Virus record (IMG/VR): IMGVR_UViG_3300037507_003208 | Span: 1-34,112 of that record | Strand: one strand, 5' to 3' | Source of the DNA: a virus | Length of the DNA: 34,112 nt | Made by a program: the position numbers and the translations under genes | Shown: positions 8,501-34,112 of the stretch, in pieces | Layout: each line of letters opens with the position of its first letter | Numbering within the stretch: position 1 is the first letter of the stretch | Notes under the pieces: generated by a model | Databases searched by the model: none | Seen by the model: the letters and a program-made list of their open reading frames with translations, nothing else | What the model was told of the DNA's origin: nothing

Positions 8501-11500
8501 GTGACGACTATCAAGAAGGCGGCCGAGGCCGGCAGCTGGCCCCTCGCCACCAGCCAGGCCGATGTCAAGGCTCAGCTCAGCGCGATGCTGGACGGGCTGC
8601 GGCAGCTGCTGGGCAATGCCAACATCCTCGCGGGATCGGGGGAACTGAACGATCCGCTCAACGCTCCGTTCCAGCTCTACGTCAACCCATACATAGGGTC
8701 GGACGCCTTCGCCGCCGGATCGTTCGCGTCCTACGACCCAGATCCTTCTGGCACCAATCCGACGACGGCGAACATTGACGCCAAGATCCGCCGAATTGAC
8801 AACCAGCGGCTGACGTGCGGCTACAGCGAGATGCGGCCGTTCAAGACCATCAACCGGGCCCTGATTGAGGCGGGGCTGATCACCAGCAAGAGCTGGTTCA
8901 ACTACAGCCAGGAGGCTGCCCATCTGGATTGTGTCAGCATCCGCCTGTCGGCTGGCGTTCACACCCTCTACAACGATCCCGGCAACACCGGCACCACGCC
9001 TGCCGTCTGGGCTGACGGCAAGGTGCCAACCATCGCCGAGCTGATCGGGTTCAACCCGAACGAGGGCGGCTGCATCATGCCCCGCGGCTGCACCATGTGG
9101 GCGCCGGACTATCGGAAATGCAGCATCCGCCCGAACTACGTTCCTGCCGACGCTGACGAGGCCTACAGCGAGGCCGGCGGGGTGGCAACGATCACGAATC
9201 GCAGCTGCATGTTCCGCACGACCGGGACTGGCTACACGTTCGGCTACACCCTGATGGACAAGCTGGGCAGCACCAGCAGTCACCACCTCCTCTCGGGCTA
9301 TGAGTTCGCATCTGAGGCACAGCTGACGGGCTTCTACGGCAGGATCAACACCGCCCTGGCGCCGAATGGCAACGGGTCGGCGGCCCTGCTGGTCGCCAGG
9401 ACGTCAGAGCACCAGATCGTCGGCCCGATCAGCGGCAGCCCGTCGGAGGCGTGGGACACCGTCGGGTCGGCGTCGTTCTACATCCTCAACGTCGGCATCA
9501 GGACGGTCCGGGGCCTCTGCGGGGCCCTGATGGATGGCAGCAAGGTCACAGGCCTGCGGTCCATGGTGACGGCCCAGTTCACGAACACCAGCAACCAGAA
9601 GACCCTCAGCTGCTGGCAGATCTACGCGGATGGCAGCTGGGCGACGCCCGCGACCTATCAGGCGCTGATTGATTCATCGCCGGACTCGCGGCGGATGAAG
9701 CCCGGCCGGCGGTCGTTCCACATCCGCGTCATCAATGGCGCTTTCGTCCAGGAGGTGTCGGTGTTCAGCATCGGCGCTGGTGTCCACAACTGGGTGCAGA
9801 CCGGCGGCGAGCTGGACTCGACCAACGGCAACACCAGTTTCGGTGGCATCACCGCCCTGGCTGAGGGGTACCGGTCGGCGGCATTCCCGATCGACAAGAG
9901 CTGGACGCTCTCAGCGTTCCGCGTGCCCCTGCGGCCTGACGCGAAGGCCCCCGCGATCCGGCGGATCTTCCTCGGCACCGTCAGCAGCGCCACCTCCGGC
10001 GCCATCACCCTGTCGGCTGCACTGGATCCGGCTGTGCTCGAGTCCTTCACCCTGCGGCCCGACTCCTACATCTGGGTCGAGAATCCCCAGGGCCCCGACT
10101 GGCGGGCTCAGCTGGCCAACCCGTCATGGAGTGCCGGCAGCCCGACCATCATCAACATCGCAGCGGCCCTGGCCGATGAGAACGGCGCCGCTGGCGGCTC
10201 AAGCGTCAATGGCCGCCGGGTCTACATCCGTCGCATCGCCGACAACCGGACGAAGGAGGAGCGCCGGCTGGTGCTCAAGCTCGCAAACACCACCAACGCC
10301 AGGACCCCGCAGCGGCACCAGATCCTGCAGCTGGATCCAACCCGTGCTGGCGTCAGCGGCGCCCTGCCGGCAGCCACGACCTTGGCGGTCACCTCGACCA
10401 CGGCGACAACCCCCGTGGGTGCCGGCGTGCTGCGGTCGGCGCTGATCTCCCTGCGGCGCTCCAACCCTGACCAGAACTACGCCAACAGCACCTACTACCG
10501 CAAGGGCACGGTGGTGAAGCACGCCAACAAGCACTGGGCGGCGATCAGCGATCTGACGACAGCGACCGCAAGCCCTGACCCTGCGCTGTGGTCCGAGTGC
10601 TACGTGGGGATGCCGGAGGCGTTCAACGCTGAGGACCCATTCGTCAACGAGGCCCCCAGCCTGGTGTTCGACGACGATGCGAGCGGCACCGAGGCATCAA
10701 CAACCCTCGGCTGGAACTGGTCGATGGCCTTCACCAGCAGCTCGGCAACGGCCGCGGTGTGGCTGCGGACCCAGTACCGCTCCGGCGTCGACTACCTGGC
10801 CGCCCATGCCCTGCTGGTGGCCCTGGGCCTCAGTTCGGCCGATGCTCACACCGCCCTGGCCCCGCAGCTTGAAGCCAGCCGCCTGCGCGATCCGGCGTCA
10901 TCGTCCGATTTCCCGGTGGCGCCCGCCGGCGGCCTGGCGACCGGGCGCGCCAACTACCCGGTGGAGTTCCGCCGCCCCTCGACACTGGCGATGGCCCCGC
11001 ATCGCACCGCATGGTCGGGCTGGGGCAACTACTCGACGGCCCTGCCGCAGGTCCAGCAGGACATGGCGGCCCGCAACCGGTTCAGCTACCTGTTCACCAA
11101 CAGCGGCGGCGGGTTCGTCGCCTGCGATGGCACCCAGGAGGACATGCTGCGCTTCACACCCGCCGGCTTGGAGGACCTGACGACCGGTGAGGTGGCGCAG
11201 GTCGGCGACATCGGGGCCCCGGACGTGGCGATCGGATCCTCAACCACGTTCAGCGGCACCATCATCGATTCGGTGTTCCAGGGCGTGATGGACTTCACCG
11301 GCGCGACGCTGCAGGGTTTCCCGCTGGCCAACAGCTCAACCGCTGGCCTGATCGAGACCGCAACGATCGCCGAGGTGCTGACCGCCATGACGACGGTGGG
11401 CACGGGCGGCCTGGCGATCACGACCGATGCCATGCCGGCTGCGATGCGATCCAATGCCGTCGATCTGGGATCTGCCACGGCACTCGACCTGAGCCTGGGA

Positions 11501-15349: not shown

Positions 15350-15499
15350 ATGCAGATCGGCGCTCAACACGAGCGCGACCGCCTGCGCCTGCTACTCGAG
15401 ACCCGCCGCGACATGCTGGCCTCCGCCAATCCCCGCGGCACCACCTCTCGCGTGGCAGAGATCGATCGGATGCTCAACATGCTGCAGCCGGAACCATGA
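15350..15499 (+). CDS. Small helical protein upstream of the sigma factor, 49 aa
   Basis: 49 residues starting MQIGAQHERDRLRLLLETRR. An in-frame ATG at 15332 would add six residues but lies only 7 nt behind the -10 box, so 15350 is preferred by the spacing seen elsewhere. The protein is a basic, all-helical sequence with leucine heptads (RLRLLLETRRDML, VAEIDRMLNML). Its TGA overlaps the ATG of the sigma factor (ATGA), so the two are translated together. A small coupled helical protein beside a sigma factor could modulate it, but that is only a guess. Confidence 0.6.
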   Translation: MQIGAQHERDRLRLLLETRRDMLASANPRGTTSRVAEIDRMLNMLQPEP

Positions 15500-16506
15500 C
15501 GGCCGGGGCAGCTGCTACCTCCTGTGATGACGCAGGTCTGACCGCGGACCGGATTCCTGGTGAGGCGCCGGCAAGGCAGCAGCGTAAGACCCCCTCTACC
15601 CCCGCCACACCACACATGCACAGCTATCTGGCCAGCATCGGCCGCGTGCCGTTGCTCACGCCTGCCGAGGAAATCCAGCTCGGGAATCAGGTCCAGGCCG
15701 CCGCCGCCCTGGCTGATCGGGCCGATCGGGCCGACCTGACGCCCGACGAGCGCCGGGCCCTGAAGGCCGGGCAACGGGCGAAGAAACGCATGATTGAGGC
15801 CAACCTGCGGCTGGTCGTGGCCGTGAGCCGCCGCTACCCGCATGACGGCCTTGATCAGATCGACCTGATCCAGGAGGGCACCATCGGCCTTGTGCGGGCC
15901 GTTGAGAAGTTCGATCCCGGCCGCGGCTACAAGTTCTCCACCTACGCCTTCTGGTGGATCCGTCAAGCCATGCAGCGAGCGCTGGATCAGCAATCGCGGG
16001 TGATTCGCTCCCCGGTCCATGCCGCCGATCTAATGCGCAAGGCCCGGAAGATCGCCCGCGAGATCCACCAGGCCACCGGCCGCGAACCGAACCTGCGCGA
16101 TCTGGCGGAGAAGGTCGGCGTCACCGAGGCCAGCCTGCAGTCGGCCGCGATGGCCAACGCAGCGCCGGCCAGCCTGGACGCCCGGGTCGGCGGCGGCGAG
16201 ACCGACCGCAGCAGCCTGGTGGAGCTGATCGCCGGCGACGGACTGACGCCAGAGGCCGAGGCGATGGAGAACGAACGGCTGGGCATGATCCGCTCCACCA
16301 TTGAGCAAGCGATGACGCGGATGACCGAGAACCAACGCGAAGTGCTGGTCAGACGGTTTGGGCTCTATGGCCACGAACCGCAGACCTTGAACACGATCGG
16401 CGCCGATCTGAAGCTCAGCCGGGAGCGGATTCGGCAGCTCGAGTCGGCCGCCATGGGAATCGTCAAGGCCTGGGCCAGTCAGGTCCGACTGATGCTGCGG
16501 GAGTAG
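15496..16506 (+). CDS. RNA polymerase sigma-70 factor, group-2-like
   Basis: 336 residues. A variable N-terminus (1-37) is followed by region 1.2 (about 38-70, HSYLASIGRVPLLTPAEEIQL), region 2 (about 96-175) with the polymerase-binding LIQEGTIGLVRAVEKFDP and the -10 recognition helix FSTYAFWWIRQAMQRAL, region 3 (about 176-250) and region 4 (about 270-336) with the -35 recognition HTH (TIGADLKLSRERIRQLE). All regions are intact. This layout matches cyanobacterial primary-like (group 1/2) sigma factors, which lack a long region 1.1. Encoded inside a phage, it probably redirects host RNA polymerase to phage promoters. The stop TAG is part of the next TAGCCT box. Confidence 0.9.
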   Translation: MTAGAAATSCDDAGLTADRIPGEAPARQQRKTPSTPATPHMHSYLASIGRVPLLTPAEEIQLGNQVQAAAALADRADRADLTPDERRALKAGQRAKKRMIEANLRLVVAVSRRYPHDGLDQIDLIQEGTIGLVRAVEKFDPGRGYKFSTYAFWWIRQAMQRALDQQSRVIRSPVHAADLMRKARKIAREIHQATGREPNLRDLAEKVGVTEASLQSAAMANAAPASLDARVGGGETDRSSLVELIAGDGLTPEAEAMENERLGMIRSTIEQAMTRMTENQREVLVRRFGLYGHEPQTLNTIGADLKLSRERIRQLESAAMGIVKAWASQVRLMLRE

Positions 16507-28011: not shown

Positions 28012-30522
28012 GTGCAGACACCCCCTACGGCCGCGGCTGGGCCCTACGACCACGACCGCTGGCGCCGCGAACGCCTGCCGATGCTCGCCGGTATCGGCCC
28101 CCTACTGCCCGGCGCACCAGATAAGCGTCCACTCGTCGGCAACGACTGGGAGACCCATAAAGGCCTCTCCATTCCTGATCTCCAGGCCGCCGCTCCCCAA
28201 TGCGTCTGCTGGCACATCGGTGCTGCTCCGGGTCACATCGCCATTGACATCGATGGCCCTTCGGCCGCGGCGTTCTGTCAGCAGCACGGCTGCGAGCCTC
28301 ACACCGCCGACACCTGGCGCATCGTTCGCACCAGCAACACCGATCGCCTCAAGCTCGTCTACACCGTCACCCCGGACCAGAAGGCGCAGCTCGCCGCCGG
28401 CGGCAAGACCGTCAAAATCAACGGTGAGGAGCTGGCCGTCTTCGCCAAGCCCGGCACCCAGATCGTCGTCCTCGGGCAGCACTACACCAAGGAATCCAAC
28501 TACACCCACAACGACGACCAATACGCCTGGGCCGGCCGCCCACCATCCGAGGCGCAGCCCCTGCCGCCCGAATGGTTCGATCTCCTTCATGGCGTCTTCT
28601 GTGGTGATCGGCCCCTCAGGCCCGCCACCATGCGCAAGCTGGAGCAGCCATCCAGCCGCAAACACCGCAGCTACAGCAGCACCTCCACCAGCTGGGTGAA
28701 CAGCAGTCAGCGGCGGCCATGCCCCATGTGTGGCCGCGACCACTCCGGCGCATGCAGCATCCATCAGGACGGTGATTCGGTCTGGTGCTGCCATGGCCAG
28801 ACCAAATCCGCACCCGACTGCAGCGCCAAGGGGGAGCAGGTCGCCGGCCATGACGGCCGCGCCTGGGCCTATGTCCGCTCCGAAGATCACGACAGCTTCG
28901 GCGAACGCTCCCTGTTCGTCCTTCACAAACCCAAGCCCAAGCCCGATCCGCCGACCCAGCCCCTCGATGGTGAGCCCTTCATCCCCGCTGATCCGCCAGC
29001 CGAGCCGCAGCCCTGGCAGCTGGACACCGTCGACGATGAAGACGCTGCCCTCGAGCGCCAGGAGCTGGCGGTCGAAATCCGTCACTACCGCGACGTGGCC
29101 GCGGCGGCTGACCTGGCATCCCTGGATCTCGCATTCCCCCCGGGCATGGCCCGCATGCTCAACACCTACGCCAGCGAGAACCGGCTGAAGCCCTGCGGTT
29201 TCCTCCTGCCGATCCTCTGCAGCGTCTGCTCTGTCATCGGCAACCGCGCCAAGGTCGCCATGACGCCCAACCACGCATGGAAGGAAGCATGCGTCCTCTG
29301 GGGTGCCAACATCGCCACCGCCAGCTCCGGCAAGTCGCCAACATCTGGCCCGACCACCATGCAGGCATTCAAGCCGTGGCAGAAGCAGGAGCGGAAGCGG
29401 CACGCCGACGCGCTGGCGGACTGGAAGCATCGGCGAGCGCAAGCGGAACGCGATGCAAAGGCTGCAGCTGCAGAATCAGGCGGCGATCAAGGTGATCGCC
29501 TCGCTGACTTTCTATCGGAGAATCCTCAACCTGAGCTGCGCCACCTGCTGGTCAGTGACGCCACCTTCGAGCGGATTGAAATGATCCTCAGCAATGGCTC
29601 AAACCCAGGGCTATTGGCTGTGCATGATGAACTCGCCGGCTGGTTCAGTCAGCTTTGCCGCGCCCCCAATCGCAGTGATCGAGCCAAGTGGCTCAGTCTG
29701 TATCCAGGTGAACAGATCATCACTGATCGCGTCGGCCGCGACTCTATATTTGTCCCAAATCCTGCCGTCTCATTGTTCGGCAGCCTTCAGCCTGCACGTC
29801 TTGAAGGCCTCTGGAAAGCTGATGCCGAAGCGAATGAAGGAATGGCCGATGCTGATGGCCTCTGGAGTCGCTTCCTGATGTTTGACCTAGGCGAATGGGT
29901 TTATGACTATCAGGATTCAACTGTCCTCATTTCTGATGCCGTCAATAGCCTCTACAAACAGGTGGATGCAGCAGCCTCGAAACTGCCGATCAGTGAAGAT
30001 GGAGAACCAGTAATCATTACCCTCGCCGAAGATGCCAAAGCCACCATGATCGACTGGATCAGGCAGGCGGAATCTTTCAAGCTCGCCGCCACTGACCCAT
30101 CCGATCGCCAGTATTGGGGAAAGCAGCGTGGCACGACCCTGCGCATCGCCCTGGCGATCCACGCGATCCGACAGGCCTCCGCAGGCCTCAACCTCAACAC
30201 CCCCATCCGGTTGGAGGTGGTCAAAGCCGCCATCGTCCTGACCGCCCTCTTCGCACGCGAACGGGACAAGGTGCTTGGCCCCGTCCGCACAGGCGCCGGC
30301 GGTGCTCTCAAGCGGTTGATCGATAAAGGCCGGGAGTGGCGCCGCAGCCATGGCAGCCGCCCTGTCCCACAGTCCCAGATCCGCGCATGGTCCCTCCCCG
30401 CGCGCCGCACCCCTGCCGCCGAGGTCCGCGCTTGGCTGCTGTCCGTTGTCGCCGAAACCCCTGACTGCGGCCAGGTGGTCCGCAAGGGTAAGTCCGTCGA
30501 GTGGGTCCCGCCTGGCGACTGA
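28012..30522 (+). CDS. Primase-polymerase fused to DUF3987 domain
   Basis: 836 residues from GTG 28012. The N-terminal about 200 residues are a bifunctional primase/polymerase (archaeo-eukaryotic primase type): catalytic IAIDIDG (Asp79, Asp81) and GQHY (His157). Next is a zinc-binding cluster (CPMCG at 237-241, then Cys248, His251 and Cys259/260). From about 370 to 760 it is a DUF3987 domain, with SSGKS (Lys441) in a P-loop-like position and VHDELAGWF as acidic motif; this region resembles phage replication helicase-like proteins. It should prime, and perhaps initiate, replication. The repeat array that starts 36 nt downstream is a likely target. Confidence 0.8.
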   Translation: MQTPPTAAAGPYDHDRWRRERLPMLAGIGPLLPGAPDKRPLVGNDWETHKGLSIPDLQAAAPQCVCWHIGAAPGHIAIDIDGPSAAAFCQQHGCEPHTADTWRIVRTSNTDRLKLVYTVTPDQKAQLAAGGKTVKINGEELAVFAKPGTQIVVLGQHYTKESNYTHNDDQYAWAGRPPSEAQPLPPEWFDLLHGVFCGDRPLRPATMRKLEQPSSRKHRSYSSTSTSWVNSSQRRPCPMCGRDHSGACSIHQDGDSVWCCHGQTKSAPDCSAKGEQVAGHDGRAWAYVRSEDHDSFGERSLFVLHKPKPKPDPPTQPLDGEPFIPADPPAEPQPWQLDTVDDEDAALERQELAVEIRHYRDVAAAADLASLDLAFPPGMARMLNTYASENRLKPCGFLLPILCSVCSVIGNRAKVAMTPNHAWKEACVLWGANIATASSGKSPTSGPTTMQAFKPWQKQERKRHADALADWKHRRAQAERDAKAAAAESGGDQGDRLADFLSENPQPELRHLLVSDATFERIEMILSNGSNPGLLAVHDELAGWFSQLCRAPNRSDRAKWLSLYPGEQIITDRVGRDSIFVPNPAVSLFGSLQPARLEGLWKADAEANEGMADADGLWSRFLMFDLGEWVYDYQDSTVLISDAVNSLYKQVDAAASKLPISEDGEPVIITLAEDAKATMIDWIRQAESFKLAATDPSDRQYWGKQRGTTLRIALAIHAIRQASAGLNLNTPIRLEVVKAAIVLTALFARERDKVLGPVRTGAGGALKRLIDKGREWRRSHGSRPVPQSQIRAWSLPARRTPAAEVRAWLLSVVAETPDCGQVVRKGKSVEWVPPGD

Positions 30523-30682
30523 CGCCAGAACCACCGCTGCAAGCACGGCCGCGGCTTTGGGACGTGGGCTGGCCGCCTTTTGGGACACGTCCCAAAGCCG
30601 CCCAGCGGTTGTCCCATGCGGTCAAAACCCTGTCCCTGACTGGCGTTTGCGGCGCCGGGTGGGGTGCCTCATGGTGCCCGAC

Positions 30683-30967
30683 TGGGACGTTTTGGGACAT
30701 TTGGGACACTTTGGGACAGGTTTGTCCCAGAGCAAATCGACTGCGGCGCAAGGGATCTGGGCCTGTTTTGGGACGTTGGGACACCCCTAAGAAGCATATT
30801 TTTCTATTATTTATTTAAGTATTTGTACCTAGTCCCATAGGGCACAGGTGGATACCCCCCTAGAGGTGTCCCAACGTCCCAAAATCGGACCACTTCGCCA
30901 GTGCCAGCGCGGCTTCTGCTCTGGGACAAGCCCGTCCCAAGTTGTCCCAAAGTCCCAAAACGTCCCA
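30683..30967. repeat. Large inverted repeat centred near 30825
   Basis: The left group (30683-30734) and the right group (30917-30967) are near-perfect mirror images: TGGGACGTTTTGGGAC...GTCCCAGAGCA on the left equals the right group read backwards. Inside them 30766-30789 and 30861-30884 match on opposite strands with one mismatch (TTTTGGGACGTTGGGACACC core). The axis is about 30825. Confidence 0.85.
30789..30829. other. AT-rich core, candidate DNA unwinding element / origin of replication
   Basis: About 80% A+T in 40 bases (ATATTTTTCTATTATTTATT and following) within very GC-rich DNA, placed inside the inverted iteron groups and directly behind the primase gene. This layout is what an iteron-type origin looks like; no experiment supports it here. 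Confidence 0.55.
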
Positions 30968-31013
30968 AACCGCCGAAATCCGGGCGTTTCAGGCTGTCCC
31001 ACTGGTTTCGCCC

Positions 31014-31040: not shown

Positions 31041-31493
31041 ATGAACGTCCTGCAGCAGATCCGCGCCTCCGTGGCTCAGGAAGCCCTGCCTGCCCCTCCG
31101 CCGATGCCATCCACCACCCCATCGCCGGCGGGGGCATCAGGGGCGCCTCCGGGGCCATCCGCGGGCCATCGCGCCCATGGGGCCATCGCGCCCATGGGGC
31201 CATCCGCGGGCCATCCGCGCCCCTGCCCCTTCGCCTTCGGCGATTGGCTGCCCCGCACCGACCACGAGGCGCAGCCCGGTGAGGCCCAGCGGGCCGTGCT
31301 GCTGGGGGGCTTTCTCGTGGCATGGTGGCGCCGCGAATGGGTGCCACCGCTGCCCATCCCCACCTACACCCCGCCGCTGACGCTCGAGCCGTTTCAGCGC
31401 CACGCCATCTATCTGCCCGACGGCCGCGAGGTGGAGGCCAGCTGCTGCCCCCAGACTGTCCTTGAGCGATTCGCCGCACGCCTCGGCGTCTGA
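31041..31493 (+). CDS. Hypothetical protein containing an in-frame repeat insertion
   Basis: 150 residues (MNVLQQIRASVAQEALPAPP...). Residues about 35-62 are encoded by copies of the GGGGCCATC repeat and read PSAGHRAHGAIAPMGPSAGH. The C-terminal part (DWLPRTDHEAQPGEAQRAVL, then LTLEPFQRHAIYLPDGREVE) is a normal folded-looking domain. The repeat has kept the frame and lengthened a linker. The first codons match the gene at 22093. No family recognised. Confidence 0.6.
   Translation: MNVLQQIRASVAQEALPAPPPMPSTTPSPAGASGAPPGPSAGHRAHGAIAPMGPSAGHPRPCPFAFGDWLPRTDHEAQPGEAQRAVLLGGFLVAWWRREWVPPLPIPTYTPPLTLEPFQRHAIYLPDGREVEASCCPQTVLERFAARLGV
31151..31230 (+). repeat. GGGGCCATC repeat inside a gene
   Basis: Several GGGGCCATCCGC and GGGGCCATCGCGCCCAT units in a row, same core and same orientation as the arrays at 32541-32687 and 33915-34112, here within coding sequence. 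Confidence 0.8.
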
Positions 31494-31496
31494 CCC

Positions 31497-31814
31497 ATGG
31501 CCAATCCACAGAAGCGCAAGGGCTCCGCCTTCGAGCGACTCATCGCCGACTATCTGGCCGAGCGCATCCCCTGTGAGCGCATCCCCGCCGGGGCCACACT
31601 GGACCGCGGCGATCTGTGGACATCGGCCGCGGCGATCCAGTGCAAGAACCACCGCGCCCTCAGTCTCGGCGCTTGGCTGCGAGATGCTGTCCAGCAGCAG
31701 GCCAATGCAGGCAAGCGCTTGCACGCCCTGGTGGTGAAGCGCAAGGGCGTGACGGACCCGGCAGAGCAGTTCGTGGTGATGACCCTCGAGCAGTTTCGCG
31801 ATCTGATCTCGTAG
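31497..31814 (+). CDS. Holliday junction resolvase-like PD-(D/E)XK nuclease
   Basis: 105 residues (MANPQKRKGSAFERLIADYL...), three bases behind the preceding stop. It shows KGSAFERLIADYL (Glu13), LDRGDLW (Asp39) and AAIQCKN (Gln48, Lys50), the E, D, QxK order of Hjc-type and related small endonucleases, then a helix ALSLGAWLRDAV. Expected to cut branched DNA such as four-way junctions made during replication and recombination, which fits its place near the presumed origin. Confidence 0.75.
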   Translation: MANPQKRKGSAFERLIADYLAERIPCERIPAGATLDRGDLWTSAAAIQCKNHRALSLGAWLRDAVQQQANAGKRLHALVVKRKGVTDPAEQFVVMTLEQFRDLIS

Positions 31815-33914: not shown

Positions 33915-34112
33915 GGGGCCATCCGCACCCAGGGGCCATCCGCACCCAGGGGCCATCCGCACCCAGGGGCCATCCGCACCCAGGGGCCATCCGCACCCAG
34001 GGGCCATCCGCACCCAGGGGCCATCCGGGCCCGATCGGGGGCCATCCGGGCCCAGGGGCCATCCGGGCCCAGGGGCCATCCGGGCCCAGGGGCCATCCGG
34101 GCCCAGGGGCCA
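33915..34112 (+). repeat. Tandem array of 17-bp GGGGCCATCCG units, open at window end
   Basis: Six copies of GGGGCCATCCGCACCCA (33915-34016), one 21-bp variant (34017-34037), then at least four copies of GGGGCCATCCGGGCCCA (34038-34105) and a partial unit cut by the window end. The frame seen on the opposite strand (MAPGCGWPLGADGPW...) is only repeat translation. Confidence 0.92.

Follow-up and report, generated by a model that had tools for sequence, protein, structure and literature searches.

In the replication origins of PICI satellites, two sets of iterons flank an AT-rich region 3′ of rep, a layout called unique among known bacterial replicons, and an example from a Gram-negative PICI drives plasmid replication (PMC6092414). 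In SaPI Rep and SCCmec Cch2, the C-terminal domain of the protein binds iterons located directly downstream of the helicase gene (PMC7581432). For the RepA_N-origin modules of Vibrio PLEs, only cognate initiator-origin pairs replicate (PMC7145576, PMC8263062). P4 alpha and its ori are also named in this context (PMC6092414).

The viral locus considered here lies in a 34,112-bp IMG/VR viral record (IMGVR_UViG_3300037507_003208; 66% GC), referred to in its full length as the window, in which an array of short repeats follows a primase-helicase gene. Its features are as follows:

28012-30522, plus strand: primase-helicase gene, 836 amino acids, the presumed initiator (DUF3987 match; two-domain modularity in relatives)
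28012-29046, plus strand: N-terminal half, type N1, presumed AEP/PrimPol-like primase, swapped independently of the array
29203-30279, plus strand: DUF3987 helicase-like domain, amino acids 398 to 756, with P-loop-like and acidic ATPase-like motifs (SSGKSP and HDELAGW)
30262-30519, plus strand: C-terminal 86 amino acids, a winged-helix domain predicted by AlphaFold2, the presumed iteron reader
30558-31001, no strand: whole iteron array, 20 TGGGAC copies, proposed replication origin (motif count and shuffles)
30551-30601, no strand: left accessory element, a perfect 16-bp inverted repeat around two TGGGAC copies, off the main symmetry
30683-30717, plus strand: left outer arm, four TGGGAC iterons spaced 10, 9, and 10 bp
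30724-30729, minus strand: opposed iteron closing the left outer arm, mirrors 30922
30769-30782, plus strand: left inner arm, two iterons 8 bp apart
30788-30827, no strand: AT-rich segment (85% AT), proposed melting site at axis 30825, conserved in relatives
30868-30881, minus strand: right inner arm, two inverted iterons
30922-30927, plus strand: opposed iteron opening the right outer arm, mirrors 30724
30934-30967, minus strand: right outer arm, four inverted iterons spaced 10, 8, and 10 bp
31041-31493, plus strand: next gene, 150 amino acids, no family found
31497-31814: RusA-like resolvase gene, after the 150-amino-acid gene

As in PICI and SaPI origins, two sets of short iterons with an AT-rich region between them lie immediately 3′ of a primase/helicase initiator gene (PMC6092414, PMC7581432); the iteron sets and AT-rich center are found in the window and in its relatives, and the array starts at 30558, 36 nt past the primase stop codon ending at 30522, the distance given in a preliminary description of this DNA. 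That description regarded the two-armed form as unusual, but this is how PICI/SaPI origins have been described (PMC6092414). As for PICI/SaPI Rep, we propose that the C-terminal domain of the initiator reads the iterons. Unlike in PICIs and SaPIs, the array sits in a phage with tail and lysis genes and behind a DUF3987 initiator, and it has 20 copies, outer arms that enclose inner arms, and an inner gap of 85 bp, with helicase-ori cassettes seen to be exchanged; S-LBS1, a phage with a similar array, also has terminase and capsid genes. SCCmec Cch2 likewise binds direct repeats just downstream of its own gene, through its isolated C-terminal domain (PMC7581432), but it is a D5/Primase_Cterm-type helicase acting on three 5-nt iterons, whereas the locus described here has a DUF3987 protein and a two-armed array. 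The PLE modules resemble this locus in that the DNA-binding domain of the initiator varies together with the iteron type, and both are swapped as a module (PMC7145576, PMC8263062). They differ in having a RepA_N initiator, semipalindromic repeats of ~30 bp, and no primase-helicase fusion, and in belonging to satellites. Phage P4 alpha, like the protein studied here, is a fusion of primase, helicase, and origin-binding parts that acts on iterons (ori/crr), but its primase is of the TOPRIM type, its helicase belongs to SF3, and ori and crr are separate. In pRN1, an essential cis region also lies directly downstream of a primase-helicase-winged-helix gene, ORF904, but a stem-loop without iterons is reported there and the helicase is of the SF3 type (PMC4234260).

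PICI satellites are small and lack full structural genes; the window encodes tail, tail-fiber, endolysin, and sigma factor genes, and its relatives among cultured phages are complete siphophages. No head or packaging genes were found among the open reading frames scanned, and the record looks like a fragment. When compared with a phage collection, the large tail protein has matches solely in cyanophages (S-LBS1, S-CBS1, S-CBS3, and Mic1), and the phage-encoded sigma factor (15496-16506) resembles, among others, sigma factors of Synechococcus siphophages, specifically of group 2. These tail-protein and sigma factor matches make a freshwater picocyanobacterium the most likely host. Within the 31041 gene, short tandem repeats (GGGCCATCGCGCCCATG and relatives; 31143-31215) appear to be repeat-rich coding sequence.

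Architecture and conservation of the iteron array

TGGGAC or its complement GTCCCA occurs 36 times in the window, counting both strands, and 20 of these copies fall within 30558-31001. In 2,000 dinucleotide shuffles of the array region, TGGGAC occurs 0.44 times on average (maximum, 4), and the window outside the array averages 0.19 copies per 444 bp (maximum, 2); the 20-copy cluster and the chance level of ~0.2 in the preliminary description are thus both borne out. All 20 copies share TGGGAC by definition, with TT preferred just before the core, and spacing in the arms is 8 to 10 bp, giving the near-identical repeats at about helical-turn spacing of a classical iteron origin.

For seven of nine plus-strand sites, a minus-strand site lies at the mirrored position, to within 1 bp, about a single axis at 30825, so that 14 of 20 copies are paired: four pairs in the outer arms (30683/30962, 30693/30952, 30702/30944, and 30712/30934), two in the inner arms (30769/30876 and 30777/30868), and a reverse pair (30922/30724). 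When the gaps were permuted with strand order kept, the same pairing arose in 0 to 0.02% of trials. The arms had been described as mirror images about 30825; their pairing to within 1 bp holds, but the symmetry is inverted (dyad), not mirror-image. An AT-rich 40-mer had also been placed beside the axis, and segment 30788-30827, the most AT-rich 40-mer in the entire window, indeed reaches it. Outside the main symmetry lie the outer copies at 30558-30616, a near-axis copy at 30832, and the last copy at 30996; the copies at 30558 and 30589 are paired with each other in a separate, perfect 16-bp inverted repeat. In the window, an apparent fragment, GC skew does not clearly change direction at 30825, and Rfam and tRNA scans found nothing.

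Two further GTCCCA copies, 8 bp apart and oriented like the right arm, lie inside the 3′ part of the primase gene (30364 and 30372; 30364-30377), and one of them is kept in some type-A relatives (L011, L014, and L020). Inverted symmetry also extends past the iteron cores at 30730-30734/30917-30921 and 30745-30749/30901-30905, where it is conserved and without explanation.

A search with the primase as query identified 17 related contigs. In the 15 contigs that we call type A (C-terminal half 88 to 100% identical), 14 to 22 TGGGAC copies are kept at matching positions after the gene, together with the axis symmetry, the AT-rich center, and the accessory-region copies at 30581 and 30589; a conserved leader follows the array in relatives. 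A check for TGGGAC clusters behind the same primase in relatives, as the preliminary description had suggested, therefore finds the cluster kept where the helicase is the same. Sequence between the iterons of type-A arrays has drifted, with indels, as expected for a noncoding array of binding sites. A repeat artifact or coding repeat is contradicted by the indels between relatives and by conservation in 15 contigs. A DNA search with the array in known phages returned no match, and scans of genome contigs returned no close relative and one distant relative.

The C-terminal half of the protein matches DUF3987 (PF13148) with an E value of 2.4e-51 and 175.5 bits, against a curated cutoff of 27; for this family, helicase function is only a prediction (PMC5862659). 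A PDB sequence search gave no match, including for the N-terminal half, which also has no Pfam match. AlphaFold2 predicts three helices and a beta hairpin, a winged-helix topology, for the C-terminal 86 amino acids (pLDDT 79), and Foldseek returned weak, nonsignificant matches only, several of them winged helices. The full-length model (pLDDT 42, with too shallow an alignment) was not used.

Exchange of the helicase half together with the array

The DUF3987 half occurs in two types, A (15 phages, TGGGAC arrays) and B (6 phages, TGGAAT arrays), which are 42 to 45% identical (43 to 44% for L017, L021, and L022 against type A). Type-B iterons are of the TGGAAT type (ATTCCACCC, GGGTGAAAT, and variants in L017, L021, and L022) and form inverted inner and outer blocks around an AT-rich center, as in type A. 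N-terminal type N1 is found with type A in L010-L015 and with type B in L017, L021, and L022, which have a nearly identical N-terminal domain yet no TGGGAC array. N2 is found with type A in L018-L020, which join an L173-type N-terminal domain to a type-A C-terminal half and TGGGAC arrays, and with type B in L173 and L175; N3 occurs with type B in L174, and L173, L174, and L175 thus carry the type-B C-terminal half and array type with other N-terminal domains. Array type follows the C-terminal half, not the N-terminal half, in 21 of 21 contigs, which are related and do not represent 21 independent events. A type-A C-terminal half with a B array, or the reverse, was never seen (15 and 6 contigs); in terms of recombination, N- and C-terminal halves occur in all four combinations, C-terminal half and array in only two.

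The N1 half is 99% identical between phages that differ in helicase half and array. In the pairs L014/L022 and L018/L173, sequences are 92 to 100% identical until ~1,540 bp before the stop codon, a left breakpoint that falls in the interdomain linker, at the shared sequence PPTPPLNGEQFIPPDAP. From there, identity is ~30 to 75% through the helicase half and at background across the array, and it returns to >90% shortly past the last iteron; by blastn, a segment of 66 to 68 bp with 91 to 100% identity begins directly behind the array. Between L022 and L173, identity is 94 to 100% over the stretch that runs from the linker to the end of the array; upstream of the linker, the two are unrelated. 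Because N1 and N2 each occur with both C-terminal types, these alignments indicate that helicase half and array move between phages as a cassette whose left edge falls in the linker and whose right edge closely follows the array.

Since the array and the C-terminal half are adjacent, linkage alone could hold both together; we argue for more than linkage because both edges lie at module borders and every iteron changed motif together. The preliminary description named the primase gene as the initiator partner, and the array does track this gene, through its DUF3987 helicase half and not through its N-terminal primase part. The latter as iteron reader is contradicted by the array type following the other half. 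In L022, ~270 bp with a small open frame (8940-9210) separate the array leader from the next gene; this region is common to L022, L017, and L021 and absent in L173.

Two-armed arrays behind other DUF3987 and VapE genes

We scanned 58 DUF3987 loci from genomes of Gammaproteobacteria and other Pseudomonadota for at least two heptamer copies (one mismatch) per strand, spaced 8 to 12 bp and no more than 240 bp from the stop codon. Arrays were found at 30 of 58 loci, compared with 1 of 58 in-gene windows and 9 windows 400 bp further on; at a stricter level, the counts were 19, 0, and 2, with none in 290 shuffles. A scan for exact hexamers was positive at 16 of 58 loci (controls, 0/58 and 1/57; shuffles, 0/5,800), and none of 11 terminase loci had a two-armed array. 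After clustering at 70% identity, 26 of 51 DUF3987 clusters were positive, versus 1 in-gene and 9 at +400 bp (2 at the stricter level), and about half of the clusters are without an array by this criterion. Iterons are most often spaced 9 bp apart, and their motifs vary greatly (CTGACA, GTCGCA, AATAGC, TACGCA, GTGTTA, and others). Compact two-armed iterons, in doublets or triplets at 9 bp, often lie behind the stop codon of these proteobacterial genes (L291-L348), with an inner gap that is often ~20 bp, and the arrays are sometimes apparently within the next open frame.

Among VapE-type primases of aquatic phages, two-armed arrays were present in 14 of 17 clusters and in neither control. Their motif changes between relatives (GTTGGCA, AGGTAGG, CCCTACC, AGGTTGG, AGGAACA, and others; L183-L262), making these arrays a good set for a study of iteron-initiator coevolution.

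In S-LBS1, a cultivated Synechococcus phage, CCTAACCT/AGGTTGGGC arms lie right behind the primase-polymerase gene (L179, 34237-34641). The gene order is primase, array, record end, with a small terminase gene at the record start, and the array is partly repeated at the record end. Detrended GC skew has its minimum at 34063, near the array, with a maximum that is not opposite, and counts as weak. A term search of the S-LBS1 genome paper turned up no reference to repeats or a replication origin at this site. No array was found near the helicase in the marine siphophages S-CBS1 and S-CBS3, which have AAA_25 helicases. In an unrelated viral contig, a family A DNA polymerase gene has a TGGGAC array of opposite polarity next to it (L139, 7012-7435), and further TGGGAC arrays lie beside primase or helicase genes in L047, L099, L136, and L154.

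The array as a probable replication origin

From sequence and predicted structure, we consider it highly probable that the array is the replication origin of this phage, that the C-terminal winged helix of the DUF3987 protein is its reader, and that helicase half and origin form one cassette. The preliminary description had proposed an origin, and this proposal is strengthened by the conservation of the cluster, the helicase-array exchange, and the arrays behind unrelated DUF3987 and VapE genes; the array is best read as a PICI/SaPI-like origin for a self-loading DUF3987 helicase. In such a model, the C-terminal winged helix of the DUF3987 half would bind the TGGGAC iterons, and because the arms are inverted, two helicase assemblies would load in opposite orientation around the AT-rich center. 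These assemblies would melt the center and, with the helicase activity predicted for them, unwind in both directions, after which the fused primase half would prime. Helicase half and origin would be coadapted and travel as one cassette, the primase half being exchanged separately. Given the predicted winged helix and the PICI/SaPI and Cch2 precedents, this two-helicase loading model is the most economical.

The array ends ~40 bp before the next gene, the conserved leader then follows in relatives, and a small Arc-like regulator is encoded nearby, as would suit a regulatory operator array through which a phage regulator controls the promoter of the 31041 gene or the end of the replication operon. 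We nevertheless judge this very unlikely, as no second such cluster exists in the window (at most 2 copies per 444 bp), a promoter scan found no sigma-70-type promoter, and an operator does not need dyad symmetry about an AT-rich center; moreover, the motif type tracks the helicase half, and DUF3987 genes unrelated to this one are followed by arrays built from other motifs, some of which apparently fall within the coding region that comes next. Iterons often autoregulate as well, and an added autoregulatory role of the array is possible.

About as improbable is a pRN1-like stem-loop origin, in which the long inverted repeat would fold into a large hairpin or cruciform in place of separate iterons. 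Although the arms are inverted repeats of 44 to 45 nt with 78 to 82% complementarity, some of it reaching past the iteron cores, the spacers between cores are often unpaired, and the 4 pairs with compensatory changes outside the cores do not exceed the 5 obtained in a control slid by 1 bp. The 8- to 10-bp periodicity and the repeated motif point instead to protein binding, even if a stem-loop downstream of a primase-helicase gene has been put forward for pRN1 and for some phages (PMC4234260). A packaging or genome-end site (pac/cos) is the least probable of these alternatives: it is suggested by S-LBS1, where the array directly precedes the terminase genes, but in the window the next genes encode the 150-amino-acid protein and RusA, the motif type follows the helicase half, and terminase loci are without such arrays (0/11).

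For the origin reading, the two-armed layout was already known from PICIs/phage satellites (PMC6092414) and initiator-origin module swapping from PLE RepA_N (PMC8263062). New within the searchable literature are the link between this layout and DUF3987, the occurrence of the layout in full tailed phages, and the exchange of helicase-origin cassettes independently of the primase domain; in the passages and titles on DUF3987 that could be searched, nothing was found on an origin or iterons. A layout called unique to PICIs (PMC6092414) thus occurs in ordinary tailed phages, including S-LBS1, which is cultivated and therefore makes direct tests possible.

In annotations, DUF3987 still counts as a domain of unknown function. 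The two-armed array behind its genes predicts a function for the family, that of an origin-binding helicase, and such arrays predict where many origins still unmapped in phages and mobile elements would lie. The cyanophages, as a family, represent a natural domain swap and point to the protein half that likely reads the origin. We tentatively suggest, as a conceivable extension, that DUF3987 may be a broad family of self-loading initiator helicases, each with its own two-armed origin behind the gene, and that phages may swap helicase half and origin to acquire a different iteron specificity. Satellites, defense systems, or competing phages that exploit or cleave the former origin could exert pressure for such swaps, in line with a proposal made for Vibrio PLEs and for ICP1 with its origin-directed nuclease (PMC8263062).
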